DNA of 64,000 bases from positions 37,254,173 to 37,318,172 of the forward strand of contig OX031070.1 of NCBI GenBank assembly GCA_943736015.1, read 5' to 3'. Positions within the stretch are counted from its first letter, which is position 1. Every line of letters begins with the position of its first letter. Source of the DNA: Tridacna crocea (Eukaryota; Mollusca; Bivalvia; Cardiida; Cardiidae). Under the pieces are notes generated by a model. It worked only from the letters and a program-made list of their open reading frames with translations, did not search any database and was not told the origin of the DNA. The translations under genes were made by a program, and so were the position numbers. Shown here one piece after another: positions 12,559-63,420 of the stretch.

Positions 12559-12784
12559 TTTAGCCCTTTACCGCACCATTCGAAGTTTTGTAAGTGACCT
12601 TGAGGAAGAAGCCTTGCAAAAATAATTTGAAAAAAAAAAGAGAAAATGTTGATCATCAGAATTTTCTCCTTATCCATCAATGTTATCGATCCTTCCAAAG
12701 ACATATTGTAGTTTTTGTTGTCTGCAAATGCTTTGAATTTAAATGGGCCTAAACTCTAAATTTTGTCTTTCGGTAAAGAGTTAA
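12559..12784 (+). mobile_element. TP element, diverged
   Basis: CCCTTTACCGCACCATTCG start; the palindrome is diverged (TGATCATCA centre); TTAA end shared with the next copy. Confidence 0.7.
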
Positions 12785-13009
12785 CCCTTTACCAGACGAC
12801 AAATTTTTAGCCCTTTTCAAATTGAAAGCATTTGCAGACGACAATTTCAATGTGGATCAAATGGTGCAACTGTTTATTGATAGGATAGAAAACATTGTGG
12901 GAAAAGGAGAAAATGCTGGTTACCAGCATTTTCTCCTTTTCCCACAATGTTTTCAAAAGGCTTGTTTCCAAGGGTCGTCAAAAGTCGACATTGTGTGGTA
13001 AAGGGTTAA
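12781..13009 (-). mobile_element. TP element
   Basis: TTAA at both ends; long perfect palindrome centred on GGTTACC. Confidence 0.9.
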
Positions 13010-13915: not shown

Positions 13916-14151
13916 TTAACCCTTTTCCAAATGACAGAATTGTAAACTGGTTCAATTTGAAAGCACTTGCAGACAACACATTAAATATGGTTCAAATGAT
14001 TGCTTTTGTCTTTTAAGTAAGGGTACAAAACATTGTGGAAAAAAAGGAGAAAATGCTGGTTACCAGCATTTTCTCCTTTTTTTCCACAATGTTTTCAATA
14101 GCCTTCTCCCTCAGGGTTGTTCAAACTAAGGATTGTATGGAAAAAGGTTAA
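13916..14151 (-). mobile_element. TP element with matched arm changes
   Basis: TTAA at both ends. GTGG plus seven A plus GGAG in the left arm is mirrored by CTCC plus seven T plus CCAC in the right. Confidence 0.85.
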
Positions 14152-14407
14152 CTTGCAAGCTTGACCTTTTGAAAGACAGTTTAGCTGATAAGATTCAGTT
14201 TTGTTAAAAGATTAAGCATGCATTTTGTTGTCAGCAAGTTGAACATTTTGTTATATTTTTTACTTTGACTAAAGCAAGTTTGCCATAAAAGTGGAAGCTC
14301 AAGGGATTTTTATTGTCGTGCCTTTTGGCCCCTGGCCTAGTACTTGCTTGCCATATGAATACTTTGAAACATTTTAGAACAAAAATATCAGGGATACCAT
14401 TTTCACA

Positions 14408-14781: not shown

Positions 14782-15891
14782 ATGAGTAAGGACAGTGAAA
14801 GTACATCTAGTGAAAATAACAATGTGTATAAAACACCACCTATCAGGATTGGGACTGGACTTCATAGGTCTAAACTTGTCTCTGGTGGATCACAAATAAA
14901 AACCTCTACAAGGCTCAGTTCTGCTTTAACAACACCAACTAGAGTAAATATCTCTAGTTCTGGATTGACACCAGTTAGTCGGACAAATTCTGAACGATAT
15001 CAAAGTGCATACAGTCGTCTGGGTGCAAATAAAAACACTAGTTCCCCATCGCTTAATGACCAAGATACTCTCACTGATGACACAAAAGGAGGAAGAAGTT
15101 TCCAGACATCGACTGACACATACAGAAAATATTCCGCTAAGAGAGCAAGTTATCCAGCAGTGCTATCTCCAAACTTAGGAGATACACCAACTCAGGGATT
15201 AAAGGCTTACTCATCCACTGAAAAGCTGAGGGGAAGCATACAGCAAGAAGGTCCAACTGGTGTACAAAAAGGTTCATTAGATGGAAGTAATACCAATGTT
15301 GTTGAGGGTGACATTGCAGACAGAAAAGGACATGATCTACCAGTGAACTCTCTGTTAGATGAACAAGAAAAACTGAGCAATAATACTAGGATGCCAAACA
15401 ATATGGTGTCACCTGCCAAGATGTCTCCGTATGTCACAGAAATTAATCAAGAGACTTCACCTCAAATACCTAATAGCACTAACAGGAAAGAAAATGACAA
15501 ACTAAATATCAACAGTAACATAGAAAACACTGATAGGGCTAGAAAACCTGGATCTTACACAAATAGTATTCAATCTGACAATGATGGTTTTGCACTTCAG
15601 AACTATGTCATTCCACCAAGACGTCGTCATGGCAACAAATTTAAAGAGACACATGATTCACCAAAAGAAACAAGTGTGGTTGAAAAAAGTGTACAAAATG
15701 ACACAATTAAAACTAGCAAAGATTTGGGAAGTGGGACCTTAGGAATCGTTAACTCAGCACCTGTTTCAAGTGTTGTAAGAAATGAAAACAATAACCTGAT
15801 TGACTATACAGATGATATAGATGGTGTACCTAAGCCTATGCAGAGAACAAGAAGGAGGTTGACAAAACGGAAGATGAGTTTCAAAAAACTG
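14782..15891 (+). CDS. SEPTIN4/5-like: Septin coding exon 1 (N-terminal extension, residues 1-370)
   Basis: Open for 370 codons, then CTG|GTAAGA donor (phase 0). Composition is Ser/Thr/Asn/Lys-rich without a recognisable domain. It ends with a basic patch, [16 protein letters not shown]. The frame runs on 21 codons into the intron before a stop. It is the longest open frame in the window and the largest stretch free of repeats. Confidence 0.93.
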
Positions 15892-18800
15892 GTAAGATCT
15901 CTTAATTATGAGATGAATTGTTTCATGTTTAATGTGTATGTAGATATACTTAAGTAAAAGAAAAATAGCCCAGAATTCAGTCAGATTTTAAACTTGTACC
16001 ATCATAGATTGGCAAAAGTTCAGATGGAAGGGAAACAATTGTACATCATGTCTTTGTAGTTCATATTATTTACACTTAACCCTTTACCCCATAAGGCATT
16101 TCTATGGTATCTCTAATTGACCCTAAATAACAGCAAGGATGAAGCCGTTTCTTATGTGTATATGACACCTTTTGAAAATGTAGAAAACATTCGTCAACAC
16201 TCGTCACGAGCAATTTCACCTTTTGCCACAATGTTTTCCAAAGGCTCCTACAAGCAATGTGTAGAAATGAGTATCTATGGAGTAAAGGGTTAACTCAACC
16301 AGAACCAGGAAGGCTTTGATAATTGCCTTCTTCAGTAAAAAAGGATCTGACATAACTGAGATAATTTGAGATAAACTGTTATGAAATAAGTCATCTTCTT
16401 TAATTTAAAAGTAGTACATGTATTGGTTAATTATACCCCCCACACCATAGTGGAGGGGGTATACTGGAATCGCCATAACTATCTGTCTGTCTGTCCGTCC
16501 ATAGACGCAAATTTGTCTCGAGCAATATCCCAACAGTTTTTTATGTACTGAACTCAAATTTATACACATGTTCCTATATTTATGAAATTGTACATGTGCA
16601 ATTTTCATGACCCTGACACGATTTGTTACAGAATTATCTCTCCTTGAACTTTTTTCAACTCTTACTTTTGTACCAAACCATTCTGCATTCTGTAACAAAG
16701 ACCTGTCTTTGTGACAAGGAGCTGGTGGAGGGTATAATCACTTTCAGTGATAGCTCTAGTTGGATGACACTTCAGGAAATAGTAGATTTCCAAATAGAAC
16801 AGTTAACCCATTACCACACAATCCCTACTTTTGACACCCCTGAGAAAGAAGCCTTTTGAAAACACTGTAGGAAAAGGAGAAAATGCTGGTAACCAGCATT
16901 TTCTCCTTTTCCCACAGTGTTTTCTACCCTTCACAAAACAAATTTCAAGTTTTCAGTCACTTTTATTTTGTCATCTGCAAATGCTTTCAATTTGGACCAG
17001 TCTAAAATATTGTCGTTTGATAATGACTTAACTTATTTACAGTGGTTTCATAAAAGTCTGAAAAAATAAAATGGCATCAGGGACCTGCCCAATAAACATA
17101 TATACATATTTTTAACCAGTTGCATATTACCTTCTATTCACTCTTTATCAGTGCTTAAAAGTAAGTCAAAAAGTGTGGTGTCCGTGGTTGTGAGGTAGAG
17201 CGTTGGCCTCGTACCAGTAGGTCCTGAGTTTGATACCCGGGAGTGGGTGTAAACTTTGTGACTTTTCATTGGCCCACACATTCAGCACAAGTACTGGTGT
17301 AGTTCCCAGAATCGAGAGAGATTAGTATCAGTTGTAAGAACTTGTTTCTCGTTTAAAGATAAATAAATATGTTTAGGTCAAAAGCCCGCACATTCAGGTA
17401 GCTGAAAAATCAACAGAGGGGTAGTGCCATACAAGTAAATATTTGGCAAAGAAGGTGGTCATACCTTCAGAGACACTCTTGCATTGTGGAGGAGAAAATG
17501 TTGGTAACCAGCATTTTTTCCTTTCTTCTCAATGTTTTCTACTGTATGAGCTAGATTTCTTGTTATGAATGAAGTTTAATTTGTAGTCTCATAATGCTCT
17601 CTCTTTTGACGTGGCTAAAATTTTGTTGTCTGATAAAAGTGTCGAAGTAATTGGAGCAGAAAGTTGTAAATATAGAAGCTGATGTGTTATAAAAGATAAT
17701 TTAATCCTTTACCTGACAATCCCAAGTTTAATGGATATGGGGGAAAAAGGCTTTAAAAACACTGGGGGAAAAGGAGAAAATGCTGGTAACCAGCATTTTC
17801 TCCTATTCCACAGTGTTTTCTACCCTTCCAAAGACGAATTTTAGTGTTTTTAGGTCAAACAGAATTCATTGTCTGCAAAATATGGTTTCAATTTGTACCA
17901 GCCTAAAATTCTGTCGTTTAAATAATAAAGATTGAATACTTACTTTGCCTTATTACTTGCAAAAAACCCTAAATTGGGTTTGAGTTATGTCCTTATGGAA
18001 ATTTGTTTTTAGATTTTGTCCACAAAGAATATTTAAAGTTTAGAAAAATCTGATGTTGCTTTTTGAAAAAAAATGTAAATTGAAATCCTGGACCATATCA
18101 TAATTGAGTGGTCAGCTGTTGTTCAGTAACATTCAAGTGTCATCCAGCCCAAATGAAATTTCATTTCTCAAAGAAAAAGTAATTTACAAACTTCACACAA
18201 AAAGTTAGAGTGGTGCCCCCTGGCAAAGATCTTAACTTCTGATTTGTAAATCTTTGTAGTTGACGTTTTAACTCTTTACCACACAACAAAATTTCAGACT
18301 GGTTCAAATTGAAAGCATTTGCAGACGACAAAATAAAGGTGACTAAAAAGTTGAAATTTGTTCTGGGAAGGGTAGAAAACACTGTGGGAAAAGGAGAAAA
18401 TGCTGGTTACCAGCATTTTCTACTTTTCCTACAGTGTTTTCAAAAGGCTTCTTTCTCAGGGGCATCAAAAGTAGGGATTCTGTGGTAATGGATTAACCCT
18501 TTATCTCACAATCCAAAATTTCAACGACTTTGAAAAAGAAGCCCTTTGATAACATTTTGGGTGAAAAGGAGAAAATGCTGGTAACCAACATCAGATCTTC
18601 TCTGTTCACCCCCGCTATGTTTTCTACCATATCAAAGACATATGCCACACTTTAATTTGCTGTCTGCATATTCTTTCAATTTGGACTAGTCAAATATTTT
18701 GTTGCTTGGTGAAGAGTTAACTGATATAGATTTATTTTCAAAATCTTGTCGCCTTCAAACCTGAATAAAATGGACATGTTTTGTCAGTATGTTAGAGTCG

Positions 18801-21800
18801 CTGGCCAGCCGGTTCATTAATTTAAATGACAGAAGGGGCAAAATAACTAGTCAACAGAATCAGTTCCTTGCTGCGTCAATGCAATAAGATGTAAGATGAT
18901 TTTTATACCCCGCAAAACGAATGTTTTCGGGGTTATACTGAAATCAGCCTGTCTGTCCGTTTGTCTGTCCGTCTGTCTGTGCATTGGTCCATGTATCCAT
19001 CTGTGTACAAAATTAGTAATTTTGTGTCGCAAACTCCTCCTACAGTTTTCCTTCAATTATATTTGAAACTTTGCACATATACTGATCATATATTGAAGAC
19101 TTGCAAGATGCAATTTTCAAATGTGAACTCCTCCTGGTTTAGGAATTATCTTCCCTTGAATTTGACACTTTTTTTTTCTGTCAAAGCACTATCGGGGGGA
19201 ATTAAGTCACATTCAGTGACGGCTCTAGTTCTGTATTTATAACTATGATGACTTGATATTAATTAAGCAAAATTATGCAATATACATGTATTGCCAGCGG
19301 AGAAATGTGCGTAGGTTCATAACCCTTTACTACTTGGCAGAATGTTAGGCCCATCCAAATCAAAAGTATTTGCAGACGATAATATCATAGTGGCCCAGAC
19401 GATGCAATTTTTCTTTGATAGAGTAGAATTAAAACTTTGTGGGAAAAGAAGAAAATGCTGGTTACCAGCATTTTCTCCTTTTCCCACAAAGTTTCCAAAA
19501 GGTCTCTTCCTCAGGGTCGTTAAAAGTCGTCACTGTGTGGTAAAGGGATAATTAGCCCATCATAATTCAGGTAAGGGATTTGATTAATGGATCACCCAAG
19601 GTTTGCCGTAAGCACAGTTTGGTGGTCAAACCTGAATTGCGTTATACTGTATAACAAATCCGGCACCTTGGCCACTGAGCCATGAGGACCCCCAATGCAA
19701 TTACAGGTAAATGTATCGAAAGACATTTGTCATGTTGAAAAAGATGTCATCTTTCTCCCTGGGGTCAATTGATAATGCTGCATACCTTTACCATTTGCCA
19801 AACGATCCTTTGCCTTTTTAGAGAGAAAGGGTTTTGAAAACACTGTGGGAAAAGGAGAAAATGCTGGTTACCAGCATTTTCTCCTTTTGCCACAATGTTT
19901 TCTACCCTTCCTACAAACATTATGGTACGGTACTACAAAATTATGAGATGCACCAATTTTGATTAATCTTACAAATGTTTCGTTTGGTAAAGAGTTAACT
20001 CTTAGATTTGTACATGTTAATGACTGCTATACTTTATGAAAAAAATGTGAAAAATGGAAGAGTCATTGAGACACCATAACAGTTCTATTTCTCACAATAA
20101 CTTCAATGATTTCTATTTTATCATCTCTAAAACAGGTATCATTTGGGCAATTAGTTTTGGGACAATTATGTCAGATTTTCTTGCACAGAAAGACTGTACA
20201 GAAAAGGGAAACCACTGCACAGAGCATGCAGTTCCTAACGCAGTGACACATTACAATGTGACAGGTCATCGATTTACTCAAAAACCTCGTAACTACAGCT
20301 CGAAACAAGTGCGGAAATTATGATGCCGTAAAATCTGATGGAATAAAAATAGATGGAATAATCCATTGCAAACTGACCATCTCATTATTAAATGAAAAAA
20401 ATCTCAAGGCAAAGAAAAATATGAGCCATGCTTTGTAAAAAGGGGGCTTAATGCATCTCTGTGATGCATGATTTCAAGCAAGTAATCGCATAATTAAGGA
20501 TCCATTAATCCATTTTATCAAACTGCCATCTCAATCATGAGGCAGAATGATCCTTTGGCATGTAAAGAAAATGTAAAGATCACTAAAAGTTCAGGCCTTT
20601 GTCAGGCTGACATGGGTCGATACTTTTAGCAAATGCATCAAGCCCCCTTTTCACAGAGCATGGCTCATATCTACTTGTATTTGGTAAAACCGTGACAAAT
20701 ATCTGTGTGGTTGGCATATCTGACTCTTGACTTCATGGTTGCGGGTTGGATACCTTTCATCTCTGATGCATTTGAGAAAAGAATTACTTGGTAAGAAAGT
20801 GTGTGTGCACTGATTTGAGAAAACAAGGAAACAGACATATAGGTGCACTTGGCACTGTGATATGATCTCAGCTGTTGATATGGTGTTTAACACTAATTCA
20901 ATTAATTCTTAGTGTTCATGCCCTGAAAAAGAAAGCTTTTGAAAATATTGAAAAGGAGAAGATGCTAGTTACAAGCATTTTCTCCTTTTCCCGCAATGTT
21001 TTCTACCCTCCCAGAATGAATTTCAATTTTTGAGTCACATTAATTTCGCCGTCTGCAAATTCCTTCAGTTTGGATCAGTCTGGAATTTTGTCTTTTGGTA
21101 ATGAGTTAAGGGTGAAACATTAACCCATTACCACACAATCCCTACTTCGACGCCCCTGAGAAAGAAGCCTTTAGAAAACATTGTGGGAAAAGGAGAAAAT
21201 GCTGGTAACCAGCATTTTCTCCTTTTCCCACAATATTTTCTACCCTTCACAAAACAAATTTCAAATTTTCAGTTACTTTTATTTTGTCGTCTGCAATTGC
21301 TTTCAATTTGGACCAGTCTGAAATATTGTTGTTTGGTAATGGGTTAATGACATAATGTAACCTGTCAATTAGTTAGTCAACTTAAAGGTATGTTAGACAA
21401 ATTGGCTTTATTTGTAAACGGAGACAGCTGGAAATTATGCATGAAAGGAAAGTGTTTAACCCATTACCAAACGACAATAATTTGGACTGGTCCAATTTGA
21501 AAGCACTTGCAGACGACAAAATAAATGTGACTGAAAAATTGAAATTTGTTCTGGGAAGGGTAGAAAACACTGTGGGAAAAGGAGAAAATGCTGGTTACCA
21601 GCATTTTCTCCTTTTCCTACAGTGTTTTCAAAAGGCTTCTTTCTCAGGGGCGTCAAAAGTAGGGATTGTATGGTACTGGGTTAAATGGACTCAGCCGGTA
21701 AGAGTTATCTACCTTTAGACTTTGAAATATGTTTTGCATGATCAGTATTTAATAGAACGAGTCTGTGTGTTTACCACACTGAGGAGGATTGATTGATTGC

Positions 21801-24800
21801 ATGGTGTGTAACTCTTTACCAAACGACAAAATTTTGGACCTATCCAAATTTAAAGCATTAGCAGACGACAAAATAAGTGTGAATCAAAAATTAAAATTTG
21901 ATTTGGAAAGGTTAGAAAACATTTTGGGAAAAGGAGAAAATGCTGGTAACCAGCATTTTCTCCTTTTCCCACAATGTTTTCAAAGGTTTTCTTTTTCAGG
22001 GTCGATAATAGTCGGGATTGTGTGGTAAAGAGTTAACACTGTTTTCAACATTATTTCAGTTATATTGCCATGACCAGTGTACTTATCCATGCTTTCTTGG
22101 AGTTTCTTTTACCAGCACTCCCTACAATACTCTTTCCAAGCCACTGGCTGCTTTCACACATAACCATCATGGAAACTATGTTCAAGGATGAGAGGGGAAT
22201 GAATCTTGTCACAATCAGTCCTCGGACAGAAATGAGCCGAGTTGGGGATTGAACCAGCGACCTCTTGTTCCCAAGAGAACAGCAAGTATAAGTCAGGCTA
22301 ATGAGTAAATTTTTACTGATAACAGCAAGTGCAAGGAAGGCCACTGAGTAATTTTTTACTGATAACAGCAAGTGTAAGGAAGGCTAATGCGTAAATTTTT
22401 ACTGATAACAGCAACACTTTGTGTAAGGAAGGCTAATGGGTATTTTTTTAATGATAACATAAAGTGTAAGTCAGGCTAATGAGTAAATTTTTACTGATAA
22501 CAGCAAGTGTAAAGAAGGCTAATGGGTAAATTTTTACTTATAACAGCAAGTGCAAGGAAGGCTAGTGGGTAAATTTTTACTGATAACAGCAAGTGCAAGG
22601 AAGGCTAGTGGGTAAATTTTTACTGATAACAGCAAGTGCAAGGAAGGCTAGTGAGTGAATTTTTACGGAAAACAGCAAGTGTAAGGAAGGCCAATGGGTA
22701 AATTTTTACTGATAACAGCAAGTGCAAGGAAGGCTACTGAATAAATCTTTACTGATAACAGTGAGTGTAAGGAAGGCTAATGGGTAAATTTTTCACTGAT
22801 AACAGCAAATGTAAGGAAGGTTAATGAGTAAATTTTCCACTGATAACAGCAAATGTAAGGAAGGCTAATGAGTAAATTTTTCACTGATAACAGCAAATGT
22901 AAGGAAGGCTTATTAGTAATCAATAGCAGAGACTGTAGGTTACCAACATGATTTCAACCTTTTTAGCATTGTCTATCATTTCATCCATGCTATCTATAAA
23001 TTTTTATACATTAACATGTCTGAAATTTTGTAGTTAGATAGAATTGAGAGGAGGGAGAGGAATGTGGGAGCAAAGGCTATGTTGATAGATTGGAACTAAC
23101 CACATTTTTTCTCATCAATTTTATTTTTATTAACAAAATAATCTTGTCACTGGGGTAATTAAAAGAATAGGGAATTCTCCAATAAAATATTATTTTTTCT
23201 GTCTAAAAGGCCAGTAACAAATCATAAATTTTGCTTGTCCTTAGAGCATCCTGTCTCAGTAGGAAAAGTTGAATTTGATAACGTAACTTTAAACCATGAC
23301 ACAGTTTTCACTGAATTTGCATTTCAAAAGTTATCAATCTGATAAACGTTGAATTTGGGTCACGTCGCAGACAGTGTAAAAAAGGATCAGACTGCACATG
23401 ACTGAACCGATCTTGGATCTACTGCATTTGCTTTCCAAGATATCTGGAAGAAAACAAATTTACAATGACAGAGAATGTCCGTTTAGTCCTGTACCATATA
23501 GTAAAATTATAGTTCCAAGTTTTAATAACCAGATGGAAGAATTATTTTTTAAAACATTGTGAGAATAGGAGAAAATGCTGTAAACCAGCATTTTCTCCTA
23601 TTCCCACAATGTTTTCTACACTTCCTGAGACAAAATTTCAATTTTTGAGCCATAATTAGGTTGTCATCGGCAAATGCTTTCAATTTGGACTGGTCTACAA
23701 TTTTGTCGTTTGGTAAAGGGTTAAGCGTCATCTCCATACCAAGCAATCCTAGTGTTTGCATCATCCTGTGGTAGAATTTAAAGCCTTTAGAAATATTGTG
23801 GGAAAGAGAAATGCAACATATTCTCCTTTACCCATAATGTTATCTACTATAATATTAACCCTTTACCTCATAAGGCATTTCTATGGTATCTCTAATTGAC
23901 CCTAAATAAAAGCAAGGATGAAGCCGTTTTTTATGTGTATATGAAACCTTTTAAAAACATAGGAAACATTGTGACAAAAGGTGAAATTGCTCGTCACGAG
24001 CAATTTCACCTTTTGCCACAATGTTTTCCAAAGGCTTCTACAAGCAATGCGTAGAAATGACTATCTATGGAGTAAAGGGTTAAAAGGTACTACCCATTTT
24101 TTGAGCCACATTTGAATTGCCGTCTACAAAAACCTTTGAGTTCAGATTAACCCTTTCCCAAACAAGCCCTGGTATTTACGTGTCTGCAGTTAAAGTCTAT
24201 TGAAAACACTGTTTGAAAAGGAGAAATTGCTCGTAATGAGCAATTTCTCCTTTTCCCACAGTGTTTTCTACCCTTTTTGAGAACTTTCTGCCATTTTCTC
24301 CAAATCTAAAGTTGTCGTCTGCAAGCTCTTTTGGTTTGGAAGAGTCCAAAATTTTGTTGTTTGGTAAAGAGTTAAGTCCAGAATTTTGTCATCACAAAAA
24401 GGGTTGATAATTGTATGAAACAGCCAGGATTCTGTCCCCAATAGAACCCAATACCTCAAAATGCATATTTTCACTTAATTTATATAAACCGTTTATTTTT
24501 GTAAATAGAAGTGACGTGCTCCGGCAAAAGGGGGCTTTATGCATCTCTGATCCGCTTTACAAGGCAAATCATTACATGACTGTGGATCTGTAATATCCAC
24601 TCCTCCGTCCAACAAACGGCTTAACCTTTAACCACACAATCCCTACTTTTAACACCGCTCTGAAAGAAGCCTTTTGAAAACATTGTGAAAAAAGGAGAAA
24701 ATGCTGGTTACCAGCATTTTCTCCTTTTTTCACTATGTTTTCTACCTTTCCAAAACCAATTTCAATTTTTTTCAGTCACGTTAATTTTATTCTGTTGTCT

Positions 24801-27800
24801 GCGAATGCATTCAATTTGGACCAGTCTATAATTTTGTCTATTGATAAAAAGTTAACAGAGAAGGCTCCTTGGAAATGCAGAAAATGTGCCAAAAGTAAAA
24901 AGTTTTGACTAAACGTGTCAGCCTGCATGCACTAGGCAGGCTGATCTGGGTTGATACCTTTTGGCAGATGCTTTTAGCCCCTATTACATAGAGTTTTGCT
25001 CTTCTATTTTCAGTTTGTTTTATGTTGCCTCAGTATTTGTCCAAACGGCTGTTGTCTGCGCATGTCATATTCTTCGAAGATTCGTCTGTCTTATATGACG
25101 CATCACTAGCCCCGAAAGAGGGCTGACTGTAATATTACGCTCTATTAAGTAGTAATGTAGAAAACAGCTTTTATCAATACGTTTGAGGAGAAATGAGACC
25201 TGCTTTAGCTCCAGATTTCTCTAGACTGCTGATCATAGCTGAGTGAATTGCACGAGGTAGCATTTTATTGAGTAAACATTTATCTTAGTTTGAAATTCAA
25301 AGTAACGGTTGTCGCATAGGAAAGTGGTTCGGTTCTGTACCCAGGATGCCCAAATTAGATAGATGAGTATTTATAGAATGCCATCTAGCGGGAGATAATG
25401 TCCAAACGACAAATTTTACATTCTTACATATTCTAAACATCTGCAGATGACAAATTCAAAATTGGTTCCAATAAGGCTAAGTTCTCTAAAAACAGGCCTA
25501 GAAAACATTGTATGAAAATCAGAAGTTGGTTACCAATATTTTCTCCTTTTCCTACCATGTTTACAACCCTACCAGAGAAATACAATTTGTCCCAATATTG
25601 AATTTGTCATTCTGCAGTTACTTTGAATTTGGAAGAGTCAACATTTCATTGTTCTGGAAAAGGGTTTAAAGATGCTACTGTGTGAAGTGTGATACACTAA
25701 TTTGAATGTCAAGGGGCTACCTGTGGCCTCGAAATTTGATATTCCATCCGTACAACCCTTCACCAAACAGGTCGGAGATTTAACAATTCCGAAGAAAAAA
25801 GACTGGCAAAAACATTGTGGGAAAAAGGAGAAAATGCTGGTACCCAGCATTTTCTCCTTTTTCCCACAACGTTTTCTACCATTTCTAAAACAGAAACCAT
25901 CCTTTGAGCTACAAGTTAATTTGTCATCTGCAAACACTGTCAATTTGGAAGAGTCTAAAACTTTTGCCGTAAGGTGAAGAGTTTACATAAATATTAAATG
26001 ACATATTTGATGAATTTGTTTCAAATTATGAGAATGTCTAACTTTTCCACATTTTTTTCACCTATACCACAGGATGTTTTACCTGAGCTGATAATAATTA
26101 TTATGCAGAAAGTGAATAGAAAAAATGTGCTTGAATATTAATCAAATTGTGCGGAAAGATTTTGTGTGTCTGCATTAATTTCGTCCGAGTCTGTGTGAAT
26201 ATGTGTATGAATATATGATAGTAATGTTAAATTTATTCAATTCTTTACCAAACCATAAAATTTTAGACATGACAAAAGTGTAAGCATTTACAGATGATAA
26301 AATAAATGTGACTTAAAATGTGGATTTGATTTTTTGCTTGAAAAGGATAAAAAACATAGTGGAAAAAGGAGAAAATGCTGGTTTACCTGCATTTTCTCCT
26401 TTTTTGACAATGTTTTTTAAAGGCTTTTTCTGTGGGGATGTTAAAATTCACGATTTTTATGTACATGTCCTAATTCTACTTTCTCTGGATACAGCTGGAT
26501 TTACAAATTGACGGATTGAAAATGATTCATCATCATCATTCATAAAAAAATGAAAAAAATAAATCAATTTTTTTTGAATATTTTTTTTCTTAACCCTTTA
26601 CCATACAATCCAATGTTTTGAGAACCATAGCAAAGAAAGCTTTTGAAAACATTGTGAGGAAATGCTGCTAACGAGCATTTTTGCCTTTTTCAATCATAGT
26701 TTCACTGTTTAATTTCATCTGAATATGGTCAACTCGCGCCTCATAAGACATCAAAGTAAATGTGGCTCACGCGAAAGAAGTTGTCCGTGAAAGATTTGCA
26801 AACAATTTTTGGAAAAGGAGAAAAGTTCTGTTACTGTGTAAAAACACAGGACTGTTTTATGAAAGTTTTTCTTTAAAAAATGGTCTGCAAAATTGGGTTA
26901 TTTTTCATCCTTTGACGAATACTAGCACTTTCTTTAGTTCAAAGAGTTTTTGAAAAGTATCGTTTTTCTGGGTTATAGATAGAAATTGCTTGTTAAAGGA
27001 TTAATTTTTTTTCTCTATTTTTGAGATTGAAAAAAGAACATGGTAAAATTGATAAGTGGTGGTTAATTTTAAGTTCCTGTGGAGATATACTGGGACAATC
27101 AGGTACACTGTGTGTTTATTATAAAAAGGATTTAACAAGACCTTGAGGATGTATAAGAGAACGCTGCAGGTAGCTGGGACTTTTTCGGTTTTTCATTTTT
27201 CCCTGACCCCAGGTGAAGAAAAGTGTGGTCATTAATTAAGATGATGTAGAGAATTTTGCCCACTCACCTATACTTTTAAATTCGTACCAAAGACAGGGAT
27301 TGCAGAATTATTTTTAAATTACATGTGATGCCAGGTTTACCTGATCTGCTCATGAGGGAGAAAATGAGAAAAGCATTTAAAAATAATGCTTGCATTTTGT
27401 TTCATGCTTTTTGGTAGTTTATTAAGAAATAATGGTGTGTCATGGTTTTATATTTTATGGTTACAACAGTGAAAAATACCAATTTCATATTTTTCAACTC
27501 TTCAATTGAAGGCAGAAATGTTATTTTCCATGCAATAGTAACATATGTAAACAGGGTGTGCCATTTAACAAGATGGAAATATGACATAATTATATGCTTT
27601 ATCCGACGTTACTTGCGCTTTACGTACTGTTGTAATGCGTTATTATGTTGAGGTGATATGCTATGAAAAATTTGGTCCCGACAAGAAAGGGGTAAGAAGC
27701 ACTAAAAATGCACTTTTGTTTGGGGGGAGGGGTGGGGGTCGAAATTCTTTCTTCTCGTTAACATGATCATTGACAATATTACCACTTGTGGCTGCACCAC

Positions 27801-30800
27801 ATGTGAAAATATTGCCATTGATGTCCACTTGATGAATAAGTGTAAATCAGTCACAGAAAGAAACAAATATCTTTTATATTTAAGCTAAAAACTGCCCTTG
27901 AATCTTCTTGTTAACATGATCATTGACAATATTTCCACTTGTGGCTGCACCACATGTGAAAATATTGCCATTGATGTCCACTTGATGAATAAGTTTAAAT
28001 CTGTCACAGAAAGAAACAAATATCTTTTATACTTAAGCTAAAAACTGCCCTTGAATTCCATCAGATTTTGATCTTGATCTACATTGTCAATATCTGAGGT
28101 AACAACCACAGCATCCAGTAGGTTAAACTAAGGTAAATTTTACAAAAATGTCCTGATAGATAGATACACGAGACATGGCTGACCAGGAGTCAATTGTCAG
28201 ACCATTTATATTTTTCTGTTCATAGCTGGTCATGGCTACCATTAGCGGGCATTAACATGAATAAAATATGTCAGTTATAATATAGATGTTGAAAATATCA
28301 CTTGAGGCTGTTGTTATGGCTACACATATATTATGATTGACGACACATTGAAATAAACCCATTTGCTTCACAATTCATTGTTTTAACTACCATGTGCAAT
28401 GAGGCTTTTGAAAACGTTTTGGGAAAAAGAGAAAATGCTGGTAACCAGCATTTTCTCCTTTTCCCAAAATGTTTTCCACCCTTTCATTGAGATATGTCTA
28501 GATTGTAGCCAGGTGTTTTACAAATCGGTGTGAATGGTCGTAAATAACTGCCAGTAAAAGGCGGCCTGATAGGTTCCGGGTGGCGCCAGGCAGTTTCTTA
28601 AGTTCAAGGGGTGTGTGACATCATCAGGGTGTCAGCCGGTTGCAGTTAGGCGACAGGCCGACAGCCATCAGATTTTACCTGCCACTGCCCTGGCAGACAC
28701 TTTTTCTTAAAACTTCAGCAGCGTCCTAGCATTGTCTAAAATGCTGCCTGTCAATTGTGCCTACCATTGAGCTGCCACCAGCCGAATTTGAGTGAAAAAT
28801 GGCAGTTACCATGCCAGCAGAGGGCATTTAGTGATTCGTGACTGTACTATTAGGGTTCGTAATCGTTAAGTTGCACTGCTCACAAAACATAAAATGGTCG
28901 GCTCCGTTATGCCTCAGTCATCGCATTCACTCTTTACCACACAATCATGATTTTCCATGAGCCCAAAATATAGAGCTGAACGAAAAAAAATGCAGAAAAA
29001 GGAGACAATGCTGCCAACCAGCATGCAGCGTTTTATCCTTTTACCACATTATCATCTAACCTTAAAAGATGAATTTCATGTTAGATAAAATGCATTTTAA
29101 TGTTTGCAAATGCTTTCAGTTTAAACAAGTGTTTGATTTTGTCACCTGTTAAAAGGTGAATAGAGGAAATGAGGCAACAGTTGTCAAGTATGGTAATTTT
29201 GGGCTACAATTGTTACTTTTATCAGATCTGCTACAGGCAACTGAGGTTAGTAATTGAACCCACGGATTGTATAACCCATTACTAAACAGTCCCAACTTTT
29301 AATGATGTTAGAAGAAAAAGGCTTTTGAAAACATTGTGAGAAAAGGAGAAAATGGTGGTAATCAGCATTTTCTCCTTTTCTCTCAGTGTTTTCTATTCTT
29401 GTGTTGGTAAGTGAATCCCTGGATTGTTCAGCCTTTTACACACAATTCGGAGTTTTAAGAGCCAGGAGGAAGAAGACATTTGAAAACATTCAAAATTAAT
29501 GCTGTCTAAATGGACAAGCCAAAAAATTTGAAATTTCTTGAGAACCTAATTGAAATAAATGTTGCAAAAATGATGATTTCTGTCTTTGACAGGGTAGAAA
29601 TCATTGTGGGAAAAGGCAAAAAATGCTGGTTACCAGCAGCTTCTATTCATACATTTGTTTTCAAAAGCCCACTTTCTCATGATGAGCCAAAGCTCCACAA
29701 ATTATTGTCGGTTAATACTTTACCCGATGGCAAAATTGTAAAATCATTCATATGCAAAGCATCTGAAAAGAACATAATTTAATGTGGCCCAGCATTTTCT
29801 CCTTTTCCCACAGTGTTTTTAAAAGATTCCTGTCAAAGGGTTGTTAAAACCTGGGATTGTTTGGTAAAAGGTTAGTAATAAGAAATAAACTTAAAAATCT
29901 TTTGTCAGATGATTTGCTAATGGTGGGTTTGCCGTTGACGAGATTTTCTAGATAACCCTGCACTCATGGGAAAAAGATGTCTGACCCTGGAGCTTTCAAC
30001 TTTTAATTACCATACAATCCAAACTTTTAAGGACCCTGAGAAAAAAGGCTTTTGAAAACATTGTGGTGGAAAAAGGAGAAAATGCTGGTAGCCAGCATTT
30101 TCTCCTTTTTCCCACAATGTTTTCAACCTACCCAATACAATTTTTGTCCATATAGCAACCTTTAATTTTTCTTTTGCAGATACTTTCAATTGGACTTGAG
30201 TCTAAAATTTTGTCTTAAAGATGTTAGCGTTCTGCAAGATCTGTTACAGGCCCATTTTTGTTGCAGAATAATTGTCAGACTGCTTTTATGTCAAATTTAT
30301 TAGCAACATTTTCTGCTTTTACTGATGTCCTGTGGACAAGACACTTTAGAACCCTAGCCTAGCACTGGTTAAACCCAGGGAATACATGAATATACGGGCT
30401 ATTGCCATGATATTACTGAAAGCTGCTTAACTCTTTACCACATGGGAACATTTTAGACCGGTCCAAATTGAAAGCACTTGAAGACGACAAAATAAATGTA
30501 ACAGAAAAATTGAAATTTGGTTTGGGAAGGGTAGAAAACATTGTGGGAAAAGGAGAAAATGTTGGTTACCAGCATTTTCTCCTTTTCCCACAATGTTTTC
30601 TAAAGGCTTTTTTCTCAGGGTCATTAAAAGTCAGGATTGTGTGGTAAAGAGAACACCAATCAATCAACCAAACAACCAGTCAACTCACTAACCCATTACC
30701 TCACAATCCCTACTTTTGATGACCCTAAGAAAGAAGCCTTTAGAAAACATAGTGGGAAAAGGAGAAAATGCTGGTAACCAGCATTTTCTCCTTTTCCCAC

Positions 30801-33800
30801 AATGTTTTCTACCCTTAACAAAACAAATTTCAAATTTCCAGTCACTTTTATTTTGTTGTCTGCAAATGCTTTCGATTTGGACAAACCTAAAATTTTGTCG
30901 TTTGGTAACAAGTTAATAAAACAATCAATCAATCAATCAATTTTTCTCATGCCTGAATGTTTTCTGAAGCTTTCCTCCACGGTTGGTAAATTCACGAAAA
31001 TCGTTTGGTAAACAGGTTATTTTGTGTTATATAATTTCAGGAAGACGATGAATACATTGGGTTTGCCTCACTTCCAGAACAAGTACACAGAAAAGCTGTT
31101 CGGAGAGGGTTTGAGTTCACATTGATGGTTGTTGGTATGATTTTCTATACTCACTGAAACACATTCTTTAGGAATTCTGGTCTGCCAGGGTGGCTCAGTA
31201 GTGAGCGTGTCGGACTCATGACCTGTTGGTTGTGAGTTCAATACCCGGTTAGCTGTGAAAGTGGCGTTAAATCCCAATACAACCAACCAACTTTAGGAAT
31301 TCTGACCTAGTTTTTAGGCTGTGTAATTCACACGGATGTGATCCAGTAATTTATTTGATATTCTGTAAGTAAATATTGACTATAGTCTATATTTACTTTA
31401 TATAAGATGCAAAACAAATTACTGGATCGAGTCCCTGTGGTGTAATTGGGTCCATACAAAGCAAAGCATTTCTTTTCCATGATGTTCTCACTGAGCCCTG
31501 GGCCTGTATTCACCAACCATTCTTGAGAATATTCTCAGTCTTATTATCCAAGGTTTTCTGAATTTGTAAGTAACACAACTTTTGATTGGCAAAAGCAAAT
31601 GGTTTAGCCAATCGGAATTTGTGTTACATACAAGTGTAGAAAATTCTGGAGGATAAGACAGACAAAGTTTTTAAGAATCGTTAGTGAATATGGGCCCTGG
31701 GAGCACATGTATCCCTGAATTTTTTTTGATAGTTATCCCCCTTTTTCCACTCAAAATTTCTTTCTGTTAACCCTTTACCAAGCAATTCCTGGTTTTTATG
31801 ACACTGAGATAGAAGCCTTTTGAAAACATGGTGGGAAAAGGAGGAAATGCTGGTAACCAGCATTTTCTCCTCTTCCCACAATGTTTTCTTCCTTTCAGTT
31901 TTTAAGTTACGTTTAATTTGTCGTCTGCAAGTGTTTTCAATTTGGACCAGTCTAAAATTTTGTCATTTGGTAGAGAGTTAATTTAAGTCTTTACCAGATG
32001 AGGTAATTTTGGTCTGATGAAATTGAAAGAATTTGCAGACGACAAAAATTAAAGTGGCAAAAAAGATGGTATTTTTATCTGTAGGGGAAGAAAACATCTC
32101 ATTATGAGCATTTTCTCCTTTTTCCAGAGTGTTTTCAGTGCCTTTAACCTCAGAGCCGTAAAAACCAGGGCTTATCTGGGAAAGAGTTCAAGGCTCCTAA
32201 GGCTGAGTGATGGTATCCTCATGCATTTCACTTTATTTTTTAACATTTGTCAACTTATCTTTGTTTTACAGGTGAGACTGGCCTGGGAAAATCTACCCTC
32301 ATCAATAGTTTATTCTTAACAGACCTATACAAGGACAGAAAAGTCGGAAAAATTGAAGGTAGGATAAAAGTAGAAAATAAAAAAAAAATCAAACCCAAGA
32401 TCTGTGTTTTCTTCTGATGTGAAATTTTGAGGATCATTTTTTTATCCTAAATTTTGAAGGTCAGCTGTCAAAGCTGGAGGTCAGAGTTCTTTCTGCAGTT
32501 TTCAAATAAATGATGAATAAATGAATTTATAAAGTTCTTTTTTTAAATGTCATCAAATATCAGTACAACAACTAATTTTGGAAAAGTGAATTTTCATAAA
32601 AATCCCTATTACAAAAGTTCCTTCTTCAGTGCCAAAGATATTTTATACCACATAAAAGTTAAGGTTTTTTATCTCTTTATGTTGACCTGTCCTAAAGTTT
32701 GTTAAATTTACCATTTAGATCAGATTGTTTGCTCTCTGATGCTAAAAACAGTGTCAATGCAGATTACATTTTATGTAATATTGCAATATATATGTTTCTT
32801 TTATGATTGAATTGAGCTGGGCTAAATCTGTTTCAAGGGTAAAAATGTCCAAGGACTTTGTAAGTCTGACATAAGTCTTTATGACAAACTGTTGTTTCTT
32901 TTCATAGAGAGAGTGCAGAAAACTGTGGAGCTTGAAAAGAAAGAGCTAGAGATAGAGGAGCGAGGTGTCAAGTTAAAACTGACCATTGTAGACACACCAG
33001 GTTTTAATGATGCTGTTAATGCAGAGGAAAGGTAAACACTGCAGTTTCCTTGATTGAATGAATTTGCATTTATTTATCGTCTCCTCCAGTTTCCCATATC
33101 ACGGCGGGGAATCACGTGACACAACAACAACAACAACAACAACAATGACCGTTATTTGAAAAAAATCCCCGACTTTAGGTAAGAAAATCTTCAATAATTC
33201 CGTTAATACATGACCGATTGGAATTTGGTTTGAAGCAGAGAAGGCGGAAGGACTCCAGGGATTTGCTTGGTGTGTTAGATTTTTTAAACAACACCTGATA
33301 AAAAAGTTATTGACGAGCAAACAAATTTTTTACCCTGGATAATTTGTTTGCTCGTCAATAACTTTTTTATCAGGTGTAGCTTGTAACAGATCAAGCATAT
33401 CCCCAGAGTCCTTCCGCCTTCTCTGCTTCAAACCAAATTCCAATCGGTCACGTATTAACGGAATTATTGAAGATTTTCTTACCTGACGTTGGGGATTTTT
33501 TTCAAATAACGGTCATTGTTGTTGATATTGTGTCACGTGATTCCCCGCCGTGCATATGGGCAACGCCCCCTGAAGACTATTAGTATTGTTACAGGGGGGA
33601 ATAGTGCAGATACAGGACAAAACCCTTAAAAGTTTCGCCTGGTTCTTTAACGTGCGCTGTGTATAGCACCATCACACGAGACCTCAGTTTAACATCACAT
33701 CCGAAAGACTATTAGTAATTTTAGATGGCCAGCATTTGGGATGGAACCAACACCCTTATGATCATGAGTTGTATGCTCTGCCAACTGAGCTATACGGACT

Positions 33801-36800
33801 GGTCAGACACTTCAGTGTCATCTTTTGTATAGAGGGCATATCTTGCTTCTTAACCCTATATCAGACAGAAAAATTTTAGACCTGTTCAAATTGAAAGCAT
33901 TTGCAGACAACAATTTCAAAGTGACTCAAATGGTGCAATTTTGCGTTGATTGGGTAGAAAACTGTGGGAAAAGGAGAAAATGCTGGTTACCAGCATTTTC
34001 TCCTTTTCTCACAGCGTTTTCAAAAGACTTGTTCTTCAGGGTCATTAAAAGTCGTCATTGTGTGGTAAAGGGTTAACCCTATACCACACAGTACAGTACT
34101 GTAGTGAACTTGAAGAAAACATTTTGAAAACATTGTGGGAGAACGATAGTATATTGACCCTTCCAAGGTTTTACAAGAAGCAATTTATAATTATAGCATG
34201 AGCAGGAAAAAAAAACAGTGTGCCTAAACACAATTTCTCTTTGAGATAAATTCTAGGCAATTTCTGTACATTTCACATAGTTTTCTAAAGACTTAACTTT
34301 CGATACACAATGTATACACAGTTAACCTTTTACCAAACACTCAAGTATTTAACTCATTACCAAACAACAAAATTTTAGACTTGTCCAAATCGAGAGCATT
34401 TGCAGATGACAAAATAAAAGTGAGTGAAAATTTGAAACTTGTTTTGTGAAGGGTAGAAAACATTGCGGGAAAAGGAGAAAATGCTGGTTACCAGCATTTT
34501 CTCCTTTTCCCACAATGTTTTCTAGAGGCTTCTTTCTCAGGGGCATCAAAAGTAGGGATTGTGTGGTAATGGGTTAAACAACCCTTAGGTTTGAAAGCAA
34601 TGTGAGAAAAGGAGAAAATGCTGTTAATCAGCATTTTCTCCATTTCCCACAATGCTTTTTAAACCCCTCAGAGAACTTAACCCATTACCACTCAATCCCT
34701 ACTTTTGACGCCCCTGAGAAAGAAGCCTGTAGAAAACACTGTGGGAAAAGGAGAAAATGCTGGTAACCAGCATTTTCTCCTTTTCCCACAGTGTTTTCTA
34801 CCCTTCCCAGAACAAATTTCTAATTTTCAGTCACCTTTATTTTGTCATCTGCAAATGCTTTCAATTTGAACCAGTCTAAATTTTTCTTGTGTGGTAAAGA
34901 GTTAAGCTCATTTGTACCAATTTTGAAATTTTCATCTTACGATGTTTTGAATTTAGGAGAGTCTAAAATTAGATATATGAGAGAGGGTTAAGGGCTTTTA
35001 TTCATAATTATACACCAAAATTTTAAACTTGTCCAACTACAAAACAGCTGTAGATGAAAAATCAGATATGCCCCAAATGATGGGATTTGCCTTTGAAAGG
35101 ATAGAAAACAATGCGGAAAAATGAGAAAATGCTGGTTACCAGCATTTTCTCATTTCTCCACATTGTTTTCAAAATACCTCTTCCTCAGGATGATTAAAAC
35201 TTGGGATTGTATGGTGAACATGAATGGTCAAGATCATTGTACAAGTTTGTTATATATTTCAGTTGGAAGCCAATTGTTAGCTACATCGACAAACAGTTTG
35301 AGTCCTATTTCAAGGCAGAAAGTGGTCTCAACCGAAAAAACATTCATGACACAAGGGTTCACTGTTGTTTGTACTTTATCTCACCGTACGGTCATGGGTA
35401 AGTAATGCGGTCATTGAACAATGATGGTCAAATCTCAGAGGTGGTCTTTGAACAGAGGTGGTCCTTCATTCAGTCATTGACCTGGAGATTATGTAAAAGT
35501 TCTTTCATGTGAACTAAAGCAACATAAGCGAGCAAAAATTGAATTCAACAATTTTGTAGACAGCTTAGATTAACAAAGAAAAATTTGTGGAAGCTCATTT
35601 TTAGCTCGGCTGTTTCGTAGACAATGTTGAGGTATTTTCATGGCCCTGGCATCATTTGAGTCGTAGCCCGTGTCGTGCAGAAGCTTTTGAGGATATTTAG
35701 CGTCTCTTTCATCACTTCTGTCATCACTGAAAATATGTACTTAAGACTTAACTCTTTACCACACGACAAAATTTTAGACTGGTCCAAATTGAAAGCATTT
35801 GCATACGACAAAATAAAAGTGACTAAAAATTTTAAACTTGTTTTGGGAAGGGAAGAAAATATTCTGGGAAAAGGAGAAAATGCTGATAACCAGCATTTTC
35901 TCCTTTTCCCATAATGTTTTCTACAGGTTTCTTTCGCAGGGGCGTCAAAAGTAGGGATTGTGTGGTAATGGGTTAAACTAGTTGTTAACATGTCAGTGAT
36001 GCATGATACCAAGCAAGTTGTTACATAATTATGGGCCCAGCTGGGAAGATCAGGGGTTTGTGTATCTTACTCCTGATCTAGAGGTTGCAGGTTTGATACA
36101 TAGTTATGGAGAACTTTCTTTATGGCAGTTTTTCGCCTCTCACCTCTGATGCGTGTGAGAAAAGTAGTCAGTGGCTTTTAAAAGAAATTTGTGTCAGCAC
36201 TGATGTGAAAAAGCCAAGAAACACATGGAAGCATCACTGACCGGCATGATATGATCTGAGCTGTTAAAATGGCGTTAACTCTTTCCCAAACAAGCCCTGG
36301 TTTTTACGTGTCTGCAGTAAAAGTCTTTTGAAAACACTAGGGGAAAAGGAGAAATTGCTCGTAACGAGCAATTTCTCCTTTTCCCACAGTGTTTTCTACC
36401 GTTTTTGAGAACTTTCTGCCATTTTCTCAAAATATAAAATTGTCATCTGCAAACTCTTTCAGTTTGGAAGAGTCCAAAATTTGTTGTTTGGGAAAGGGTT
36501 AAGCTCCAATACAAACCAAAGAAACATAATTATTGATATATAAAGTCCATTTTGTCTAACTAACAACTACCGTACATCATAAACTTCGAAAATCAGTGTC
36601 ATTAACACCTGACAATCCAAAAATACCCCTCACTTCTGATAACATTATAAACTTTCTGCTACAAAATACTTGTCAAGTAACTTGAAAAAAAAGTTAAGAA
36701 ATTCAAAGATCTGGGTCCGTATTCACTAACAATTCTTAGGGACATTCTTTGTCTTATTCTCCTAGATTTTCTAAATTTGAAAGTAACACAACTTCTGATT

Positions 36801-39800: not shown

Positions 39801-42800
39801 ATTTCAATTTTTAGAGTAACATTTATGGTTGCACCAGCAAATGCTTGTTATTTGGGCAAGTCCAAAATTTTGATACTGGTAAAGAGTTAATTGAAAAAAA
39901 AGTTTGCTTCCATAATTTGTGCCTGCAAGAGATTTAGGTTCCTTGAGAGCTGTCTGTTTTGTTATTTCAGAAAGCCATTCCGTTTGCTGTAGTGGGTAGT
40001 AATACAGTGGTAGAGGCTGGTGGGAAAAAGATACGAGGGCGGATGTATCCATGGGGAATAGTAGAAGGTGAGTCATAAAATCTCATTTTCATGCAGTGTT
40101 TTACATATGAGCCCTGTTCTGTGAAAAGGGGGTTTGATGAACCTCTGTCATGCATAATGTCAAGCTAGTCATTGCAAAATTATGGGTTACATAACATAAG
40201 TTTTGAATCATAAGGTAGAATGGTTTTTGGACATGCAGAAAGTTGACCTGTAGTAAAATGATTGACCAAAGTCAGCCTGAGCAGACTGTGCCGGATGACC
40301 TGGGTCGATAGTTTCTACAGATGCATTAACTCTTTACCACAAGACAAAATTTTAGACTAGTCCAGATTGAAAGCATTTAGAGATGACAAAATAAAAAGTG
40401 ACTGAAAATTTGAAATTTGTTTTGTGAAGGGTAAAAAACACTGTGGGAAAAGTAGAAAATGCTGGTTACCAGCATTTTCTCCTTTTCCCACAATGTTTTC
40501 TAAAGGCTCCTTTCTCAGGGGTATTAAAAGTCAGGATTTTCACAATGCAGGGCCCATATCATGCGTTAACCCTTTTCCACACAATCCTAACTATCAAAAA
40601 CCCTGAAAAAAGAGACCTTTTGTGAAAACATGTTGGGAAAAGGAGAAAATGCTGGTAGCCAGCACTTTTCCCTTTTTCCCCACAATGTTTTCTAATCTTC
40701 TCAGAGCAAGTTTCAAGTTTTGAGCCACATTTATTATGCGGTCTGCAAATACTTTTCAGTTGGACAAGTCTAAAATTTCATTGTTTGGTAAAGAGTTAAC
40801 CCTTTACCACACAGTGACGACATTTGACGACCCTGAGATAGAAGCCGTTTGAAAACCATGTGGAAAAAGGAGAAAATGCTGGTAACCAGCATTTTCTCCT
40901 TTTCCCACAATGTTTTCTACCCTCCTCAAATCAAATTCCGATTCTGTAGTCACATTTATTATGTCATCTGCAAATACTTTCAATTTGGACGAGTCTAAAA
41001 TTTTGTCATTTGGCAATGAGTTAACCCTTTCCCAGATGACAAACTTTTGGACTAGACCAAATTGAAAGCATTTGCAGACGACAAATCAACCCTTGCTGAA
41101 AGGATGATTTCTGTCTATGATAGGCTAGAAAACATTGTGAGAAAAGAAGAAAATGCTGGTTACCAGCATTTTTTCCTTTTCCCACAATGTTTTCAAAAGG
41201 CTACTATTCTAGACCCGTAAAAACCAGGAATTGCTTGGGAAAGGGTTAAACCACATTTTTACCTGTAACATATTTTACCATTTTTCTCACATTTCTCCAA
41301 CTGCAGCTTGATTTTCCGGTAGTTTCTAGTACCGGTACTTGTAAAGAGAGTACAAAATATATTTAACCCTCTATTATACCTGTACAATCCAAAATTTTAA
41401 ATATCTTGATGAAGAAAGCTATGAAAACATCGCAGGAAAAGGAGAAAATGCTGGTAACCAGCATTTTCTCCTTTTACCTACTATGTTTTCTACTCTCCCA
41501 AAGACAAACATTTGGGTTTTTAGCAGAGCTTAACCCATTACCACACAATCCCTACTTTTGACGCCCTTGAGAAAGAAGCCTTTTGAAAACATTGTGGGAA
41601 AAGGAGAAAATGCCGGTAATCACAATGTTTTCTATCCTTCACGAAACAAATTTCAAGTTTTCAGTCATTTTTATTTTGTTGTCTGCAATGCCTTTCAATT
41701 TTGACAAACCTAAAATTTTGTTGTTTGGTAATGGGTTAATTTATCACCTACAAATACTTTGTCATTTGGTAGAGTAACCTTAGATCAGTTCCATCCTCAC
41801 ATGAGAGAATAACATGGCATTGTGTTTATTATGCTTTTATGTGTTTACAGTGGAAAACCCAAGTCATTGCGACTTTGTCAAGCTTAGACAGATGCTTATA
41901 AGGTATGTTGAGATTTATCTTTTACCATTTTTTAGCTGGGATATTTTTAAAAAAAAAAAACAAAACACTAAGGTCTTGTCATAGCCCTGATTTCGTCCGA
42001 GTTGAGATACAAAAAGTGTCACAGTTTATGATACATGTGTCTCTGTCATTACTTTTACTTGGACTAGTTGTTTTATTGTACTACAAAGAAATTTCTCATG
42101 ATCTGATTGGATAATATTCCCCGAACATATATATAATGTAGACTTGCAAAAGCAGTTTCCTTTTTGGGAGCCCTGTATACATGACTACACTATCAACACA
42201 TCCAAATGGCAACGTTGATCAAGATTAACATCAAGATTATGCGCCAAGCTACATGTTTTAGCACATATTACGAAGATTTCAGTGAAGTTAGTTCTCAATG
42301 ATGCCAGTTTTCATTGAATTAAGGCACTCAGAAGGGAAATTCTTCTTCGTCCTCAATTTTTTAAACTATAAAAAAGGTAAAAATTGCTTATCAAAGGTTG
42401 GAATGGTAACTCTTTGCTGTAAAATAAATTTGTTGTACAGTCAGGTGGCAGAGGACTTAGAAACCTGTTCACAGCTGTGGTGAATCATGTAGCTACATGT
42501 ACCTTACCTTTGACTCGGGGCGATCTGATTCACCACAGCAGTGAACAAGTTTCCAAGTCCCCTGTCACCTCAACGTTCAACTAATAATGTATCAAAAAGC
42601 AAACTCAGACAATACAGGCAGGTAACTATCAAACTATTTTTGATACAGTTATGCCCCCTTCCTTTTACTAATATTAATCTGTTTTCAAAAACCAACCTGC
42701 ATGGGTTACTATTGTTTTTTCTGTGACAAGTCTTTTGTACTGTTGATTTTGATTACTTATGTATGAGCAAAAAGCTTACACTAGAAGATATTTAACTCTT

Positions 42801-62552: not shown

Positions 62553-62784
62553 TTAACCCATTACCAAACGACAATATTTTAGACTGGTCCAAATTGAAAG
62601 CATTTGCAGACGACAAAGAAAAAAAATTGACTGAAAATTTGAAATGTGTCTTGTGAAGGGTAGAAAACATTGTGGAAAAAGGAGAAAATGCTGGTTACCA
62701 GCATTTTCTCCTTTTTCCACAATGTTTTCTAAAGGCTTCATTCTGAGGGGCGTCAAAAGTAGGGATTGTGTGGTAATGGGTTAA
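62553..62784 (-). mobile_element. TP element with matched arm change
   Basis: TTAA at both ends; GTGGAAAAAGGAG / CTCCTTTTTCCAC share a G-to-A change. Confidence 0.9.
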
Positions 62785-63299: not shown

Positions 63300-63420
63300 A
63301 TTCCTAAAATCTTTACCAGAGAATAACATTGTATGTCAAATTGTTGGATTTACGTCAGAAGGGATAAAAAAATATTGTGGGAAAAGGAGAAAAATGCCAG
63401 TGAAACTTTTACATTTTTTT
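63300..63420 (+). repeat. TP fragment
   Basis: ATCTTTACCAGAGAATAAC and AATATTGTGGGAAAAGGAG; right arm lost. Confidence 0.5.

Follow-up and report, generated by a model that had tools for sequence, protein, structure and literature searches.

Inherited and private matched changes in the palindrome arms of a putative TTAA-target MITE of Tridacna crocea

The repeat family and its palindrome

The window analysed here is a 64-kb stretch of Tridacna crocea DNA, rich in introns and repeats as expected of an animal. At positions 13916–14152 (minus strand) it contains a full copy of a repeat with TTAA at each end (profile hit to model positions 1–230). The palindrome core of this copy (14026–14096, 35 + 1 + 35 nt) folds as DNA into one hairpin (−37.5 kcal/mol, z −16). 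Reading of the arms showed two matched changes in the core, an AA insertion (runs of seven A and seven T) and G13A.

The repeat is about 231 bp long, and 127 copies were found in the window (24.4 kb of summed profile hits, after overlaps of half or more were dropped). Its termini, TTAACCCTTTACC and GGTAAAGGGTTAA, are inverted, and the element is non-coding. TTAA flanks many copies on either side, and the conservation stops at TTAA. TTAA-target MITEs of the piggyBac or Kolobok superfamilies have TTAA on both sides, short inverted termini starting with CCC and no coding sequence, and the same was found here. Judged by these sequence features, the repeat fits a TTAA-target MITE with short inverted ends and a probable TTAA target duplication. 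Off-centre within the MITE lies a palindrome of 67 nt (33 + 1 + 33 nt). A long perfect palindrome in the interior is not known to define piggyBac or Kolobok MITEs. The palindromes of five copies were folded as DNA, and each formed a single hairpin of −30 to −38 kcal/mol. The element matched no Rfam family at gathering score, and pattern scans of viral and prokaryote collections with the palindrome core gave 0 matches.

The family is abundant in the host genome (1.05 Gb, 31 contigs). In 240 kb of arbitrary DNA (24 stretches of 10 kb, L009–L028 and L109–L112), 263 copies with a summed length of 47 kb were found, that is about 1.1 copies per kb and about 20% of the sampled DNA. The number of copies per stretch ranged from 0 to 20 in the first 20 of these stretches. 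By extrapolation, the genome-wide copy number is on the order of a million. At four places in the window (hit coordinates 12560–13009, 40565–41249, 45380–45833 and 63420–63880) MITE copies abut, apparently with one common TTAA, as if younger copies had inserted into the TTAA of older ones.

Other features were also observed in the window. An open frame of 391 aa at 14782–15957, the sole one of at least 150 aa in the window, has one protein-database relative (70% identical) and is possibly a coding exon; no listed MITE copy overlaps it. Tandem arrays lie at 22278–22919 (43-bp unit, 14.7 copies), at 27750–28056 (153-bp unit, two copies 96–97% alike), and at 43365–44736 and 46350–47274 (units of 166 bp with 7.5 copies, 124 bp with 2 and 152 bp with 5.9). 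A tRNA-like match on the minus strand at 33727–33799 (32.2 bits versus a gathering score of 29) is possibly a tRNA-derived repeat.

Matched changes, single-arm changes and inherited markers

Events were listed for every arm from its alignment with the consensus arm, and those identical in the two arms of a copy were counted as matched. The window set contained 98 two-armed copies, after 10 of the 108 core copies had been left out because an arm was too short. In these copies we found 60 matched events versus 417 single-arm events (211 left, 206 right). Random re-pairing of arms among the window copies gave 11.3 matched events on average and 23 at most (2000 trials). A larger sample, with 27 further loci (seven relatives of one copy and 20 arbitrary ones), contained 268 two-armed copies among 318 core copies. 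Here 141 matched and 1368 single-arm events were found, and re-pairing expects 33.8 matched ones. Single-arm changes were 7–10 times as frequent as matched changes in these sets. Matched changes are therefore real, at about five times the chance level, yet they are the minority of arm changes. The preliminary description had cited six sets of matched changes, all of which are present in the sequence as described, and had attributed them to more than random mutation, which the re-pairing bears out. Its proposed check, whether matched changes outnumber single-arm changes, gave a negative answer (60 versus 417).

Several copies in the window illustrate the matched changes. The copy at 23488–23724 (plus strand; arms and ends read) has a matched A16T (AATAGG/CCTATT) and a degraded left end, and the copy at 25754–25983 (plus strand) has an extra A:T pair in both arms. 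Matched T7A, G13A and G18T were found at 35002–35218 (minus strand; from arms, ends and fold), where the ends are degraded and the arms read ACAATG/CATTGT and AATGAG/CTCATT. The copy at 63420–63655 (minus strand) carries four matched changes (G0A, C5T, T10A and an A insertion at 14), with TTGAGGGAAAAAGG present in each arm; the larger sample scores three of them, the outermost one being unscored. A matched G13A was found at 62553–62784 (minus strand), in a copy which has close relatives and no unmatched arm change, and matched G12A and G13A were found together with a central T at 24621–24856 (plus strand).

Some of the matched changes are inherited. Five types account for 26 of the 60 matched events in the window (T7C 9, G30C 7, A25T 6, G13C 2 and A20T 2) and for 71 of the 141 in the larger sample. 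The mean nearest flank distance of their carriers was 0.08–0.10, versus 0.21–0.25 for random sets (0 of 500). Since the carriers are this close in their flanks, the five types are subfamily markers. One of the six cited sets, CACTGT/ACAGTG, is the marker T7C; it was found at 16802–17032 (plus strand, with G11A in the left arm only), 21456–21684 (minus strand) and 34677–34905 (plus strand). The copy at 24147–24375 (plus strand) belongs to a subfamily marked by three such inherited changes (T7C, A25T and G30C), and that at 23855–24083 (minus strand) to one with four (G13C, A20T, A25T and G30C). Inheritance accounts for roughly half of the matched events, so the case named in advance as refuting, a few inherited subfamilies, holds for that half and leaves the private matched changes. 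Outside the markers, the carriers of the shared types examined (G13A, G19A, G11T, G11A, an insertion at 14, G18A and G9T) were not flank neighbours, and these types look recurrent.

Private matched changes and their carriers

Matched changes outside the markers were compared with a null in which the event number of each copy was kept per arm, the events were redrawn from the observed spectrum and the strata were re-formed (1000 runs). The stratifying step was repeated in the null because strata set after the removal of matched pairs favour carriers. In the 245 copies with usable flanks, 58 non-marker matched events were found versus 30.1 expected (sd 5.2; 0 of 1000 runs). When a further 40 kb was added and all copies were realigned, the result was 61 versus 30.4 (255 copies). 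The excess persisted with substitutions only.

Copies were then classed by nearest-neighbour distance of the flanks as close (<0.12), middle (0.12–0.2) or divergent (at least 0.2). Close-flank copies had 3 private matched changes versus 1.8 expected, and the middle class had 8 versus 3.2 (13 of 1000 runs), or 6 versus 3.8 after realignment (350 of 2000). The 32 divergent copies that had no more than four unmatched events, 17 of them carriers, contained 24 matched changes versus 2.2 expected (0 of 1000). With five or six unmatched events the numbers were 4 versus 3.4. In the 51 divergent copies with at least seven, 19 were found versus 19.6, which is the chance level. That the arms carry matched mutations copy by copy, as first described, is correct in that private matched changes exist; it is too strong for these heavily mismatched copies and for a family with so many single-arm changes. 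Early strata of the window alone gave 24 matched changes versus 2.6 for at most five unmatched events, and 10 versus 7.9 for more than five.

The size of the excess differed with the source of the copies. The window alone gave 29 private matched changes versus 9.3 expected. Copies outside the window gave 29 versus 21.3 (89 of 2000 runs), and 12 versus 3.2 (0 of 2000) with at most four unmatched events; with the 40 kb added, these values were 32 versus 22.8 (72 of 2000) and 13 versus 3.7 (0 of 2000). No excess was found in the 13 copies of the added 40 kb alone (1 versus 1.2). The stronger excess inside than outside indicates that the window overstates the effect.

Matched changes could also coincide by chance at common mutational hot spots, for example where the purine tract changes from G to A. 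The recurrence of matched G13A and G19A in copies which are not flank neighbours fits this, as does the chance level of the heavily mismatched copies. However, the null already draws on the spectrum of observed events, and the excess survived the exclusion of G to A (25 versus 13.4, 2 of 2000 runs; for copies with four or fewer unmatched events, 19 versus 6.3, 0 of 2000). We consider such coincidence a quite improbable source of the excess.

Nine copies had at least two non-marker matched changes, which may have arisen at once in one continuous tract or in separate events. Of 42 matched changes placed along the arm, 25 were in the middle third, 14 in the outer third and 3 in the inner third. 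Arm mismatches were lowest in the inner third (0.037 versus 0.077 in the outer third at a load of 1–4, and 0.251 versus 0.318 at a load of at least 7). Within subfamilies, private changes were found at 62 of 2741 arm site-copies versus 305 of 6673 flank site-copies, which is about half, and few matched changes were found there. This deficit is what selection for pairing locus by locus, with for example each hairpin in use, would give. Such selection is nevertheless extremely doubtful: the copies occur at about one per kb in arbitrary DNA, 59 of the 245 copies have at least seven unmatched arm events, single-arm changes dominate, and Rfam offers no match at gathering score. The deficit is left out of the case for copying between arms, because close-flank copies have no matched excess.

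The terminal repeats provided a measure of age. Mismatch was measured over 12 pairs, with two polymorphic pairs left out. Paired copies with close flanks had 55/792, the 15 divergent paired copies 38/180 (7 carriers 21/84, 8 others 17/96) and the 16 divergent decayed copies 39/192. Core unmatched events per pair were 0.069 in divergent paired copies and 0.309 in divergent decayed ones. The similar terminal mismatch makes the divergent paired copies as old-looking as the decayed ones, on a clock that is imperfect because source elements can carry unequal ends (pair 5 is mismatched in half of 154 copies). Terminal mismatch was 24/144 in carriers that had three or fewer unmatched events versus 98/1065 in others (p 0.03). 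Restricted to the window and to stricter ends, the comparison gave no significant difference (8 carriers 0.144, 41 others 0.119, p 0.39).

The terminal repeats lie about 200 nt apart and form no local hairpin, and they also carry matched changes. Matched markers in 154 copies were T7A (34), C5T (19), A10C (11) and A13C (6), and the element ends covary between subfamilies (CCCATTACC/GGTAATGGG and CCCTTTCCC/GGGAAAGGG). Private matched changes numbered 14 versus about 6.1 expected, or 14 versus 4.1 on re-pairing (0 of 3000), and some of them fall in carriers of core changes. Divergent copies had 9 versus 3.7 (p 0.013), and those with decayed cores 5 versus 1.8 (p 0.03). In divergent paired copies, the terminal repeats gave 4 versus 1.9 and the core 10 versus 0.8, with expectations uncorrected for strata.

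These terminal changes bear on the main rival explanation, that all matched changes come from source (transposing) lineages. A symmetrical binding site or hairpin would be selected there, or arms would be corrected during transposition, and carriers without siblings would be the last of rare or extinct lineages. The five markers are clearly of this type, and the terminal repeats have matched subfamily variants together with private ones, some in the same carriers. In a tree built from the flanks of 86 window copies (median support 70), the ratio of matched changes to the rest was 5:10 for internal branches and 27:277 for terminal ones (Fisher p 0.011), and the matched excess did not grow with arm mismatches.

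To look for siblings, the genome was searched with each carrier; 40 candidate places were scored each time, very common words were skipped, and a subset was compared in full. The same search lists relatives of 94–98% for two other MITE copies. For 63420, the best listed relative was 80% identical over part of the element, and the flank identity of 20 relatives was 0.62–0.70 (family consensus 0.70). For 13916, listed relatives were 78–82% identical, and 10 compared ones had a flank identity of 0.70–0.77 (consensus 0.75). For 35002, the corresponding values were 76–88%, with the top ones over short parts, and 0.62–0.72 in 10 (consensus 0.68); for 25754, they were 77–84% and 0.55–0.73 in 12 (consensus 0.72). 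For these four divergent carriers, no sibling was found among the 40 places listed for each or the 52 relatives compared, and none of the 52 had the full matched set of any carrier with several matched changes. Moreover, 35 non-marker matched events fell in copies that had five or fewer unmatched ones; the copy nearest by flank lacked the change in both arms for 34 of them and had it in the right arm only for one.

Parts of the matched sets were shared by copies which had been chosen by likeness to the query and so give no rates. With flanks unrelated, the A insertion of 63420 was found in both arms of L064, with T10A in the left arm only, and both changes were found in the right arm only of L055 and L056. 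Likewise with unrelated flanks, the A insertion of 25754 was present in both arms of L116 and in the left arm of L113. Again with flanks unrelated, T7A was in both arms of L072 and L069 as in 35002, L069 also having paired changes of its own, and the seven-A run of 13916 was in the left arm only of L079. The matched G13A of 62553 was missing in 17 of 20 relatives and present in the left arm of L032, the right arm of L033 and both arms of L040.

For the four divergent carriers, no compared relative rose more than 0.04 above consensus-level flank identity. If matched changes came from source lineages alone, the well-paired arms of these carriers would imply youth, so that siblings should outrank consensus-like copies. 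The carrier at 23488 also speaks against this origin. Its 20 compared relatives differ at 6–14 of about 107 right-flank sites, and the matched change was found in none of them, L091 showing it in its right arm alone and L105 in its left arm alone. We therefore consider source lineages an unlikely origin for all matched changes. A first reading of the window alone, which rested on the strata and the internal/terminal contrast and invoked source lineages alone, was overturned by the terminal-repeat measure and the genome searches.

The one-base centre of the palindrome was also scored. In the 245 copies it was A in 197, T in 26, G in 9, C in 8 and a gap in 5. Central-T copies did not lie closer together than random sets matched by flank (p 0.30), and the nearest neighbour had A in 24 of 26 cases. 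T was more frequent than G and C together (26 versus 17; p 0.0007 in a binomial test with an expected share of 0.35, from rounded flank A/T shares). Within the window, the centre had changed from A to T more often than arm A/T sites had (p 1e-5) but not more often than flank sites (p 0.14). Spacer inversion would give A to T, which is indistinguishable from a substitution in any single case.

Proposed copying between arms and its place among known systems

The private matched excess is limited to divergent but paired copies, four carriers have no sibling among the relatives searched, and the change of the centre from A to T recurs. On this basis, we think it fairly probable that arm-onto-arm copying, templated by the hairpin, occasionally takes place in resident copies, besides the five markers of source lineages. 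The five marker changes arose in source lineages and were passed on within subfamilies. In a resident copy, a mutation would first strike one arm. Later, with the palindrome folded into a hairpin or cruciform, copying between the arms would either pass the mutation on to the partner arm and make it symmetrical or erase it; replication template switching or hairpin repair is a candidate for this step. The same switching may now and then invert the one-base centre. With excess mismatches, the hairpin would stop serving and the arms would decay independently. From these observations we infer when copying happens (after insertion), by what molecular step, how likely erasure is and how many mismatches are tolerated. 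Of the two mechanisms proposed in the preliminary description, arm-onto-arm copying fits best, and there is no need to invoke locus-by-locus selection for pairing.

More tentatively, in a suggestion that we rate slightly less likely than not, paired copies may self-correct long after insertion, with flips of the centre, and their arms may diverge once past the mismatch threshold, so that old copies would fall into a self-corrected and a collapsed class. Several results stand against copying. The all-copies excess is weak outside the window, that of the middle flank class shrank on realignment, terminal mismatch is an unclean measure of age, and A to T at the centre is not above flank sites in the window. 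The inner third of the arm is rarely matched (3 of 42), where a hairpin nucleated at the centre should act most. The private matched excess of the terminal repeats arises where there is no local hairpin, and copying does not explain the lower number of private changes in arms than in flanks within subfamilies.

The process is already known from inverted-repeat template switching, and the MITE would be a new setting for it. Template switching homogenises imperfect inverted repeats in yeast strains (quasipalindrome correction, PMC8604942). In the yeast quasipalindromes, arms are made identical and the spacer can be inverted; the MITE has private matched changes in both arms, and its recurrent A to T at the centre may reflect spacer inversion. 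The yeast cases are events in genes of one lineage, whereas the MITE offers many insertions as replicates with mostly single-base changes. Template switching has also been proposed to maintain RNA hairpins (PMC8794818). Compensatory changes would arise there, as proposed for the MITE, by copying from the opposite arm, but those stems belong to RNA genes under selection and the MITE has no sign of a functional RNA. In DINE-1 of Drosophila, a transposon stem varies among species, which PMC2374699 ascribes to compensatory mutations. Its stems are 7–11 nt and were compared between species, whereas the MITE has arms of 33 nt compared copy by copy. At piggyBac-type ends, palindromic transposase-binding motifs are bound by paired domains (PMC11707139). 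Such binding of symmetrical sites would make symmetry selectable in a source element; however, those motifs are short (19 bp or imperfect) and near the ends, and the MITE has one internal palindrome of 67 nt without a known binding protein. A literature search for MITEs together with covariation found no paper, which is not a claim of absence from print.

Inherited subfamily markers must first be separated from other matched changes. If copying is true, one animal genome would hold replicate palindromes of varied age, in which the rate and direction of copying and its tolerance of mismatches would be measurable in nature. Matched stem changes, usually taken to prove a selected structure, may then come from copying alone.
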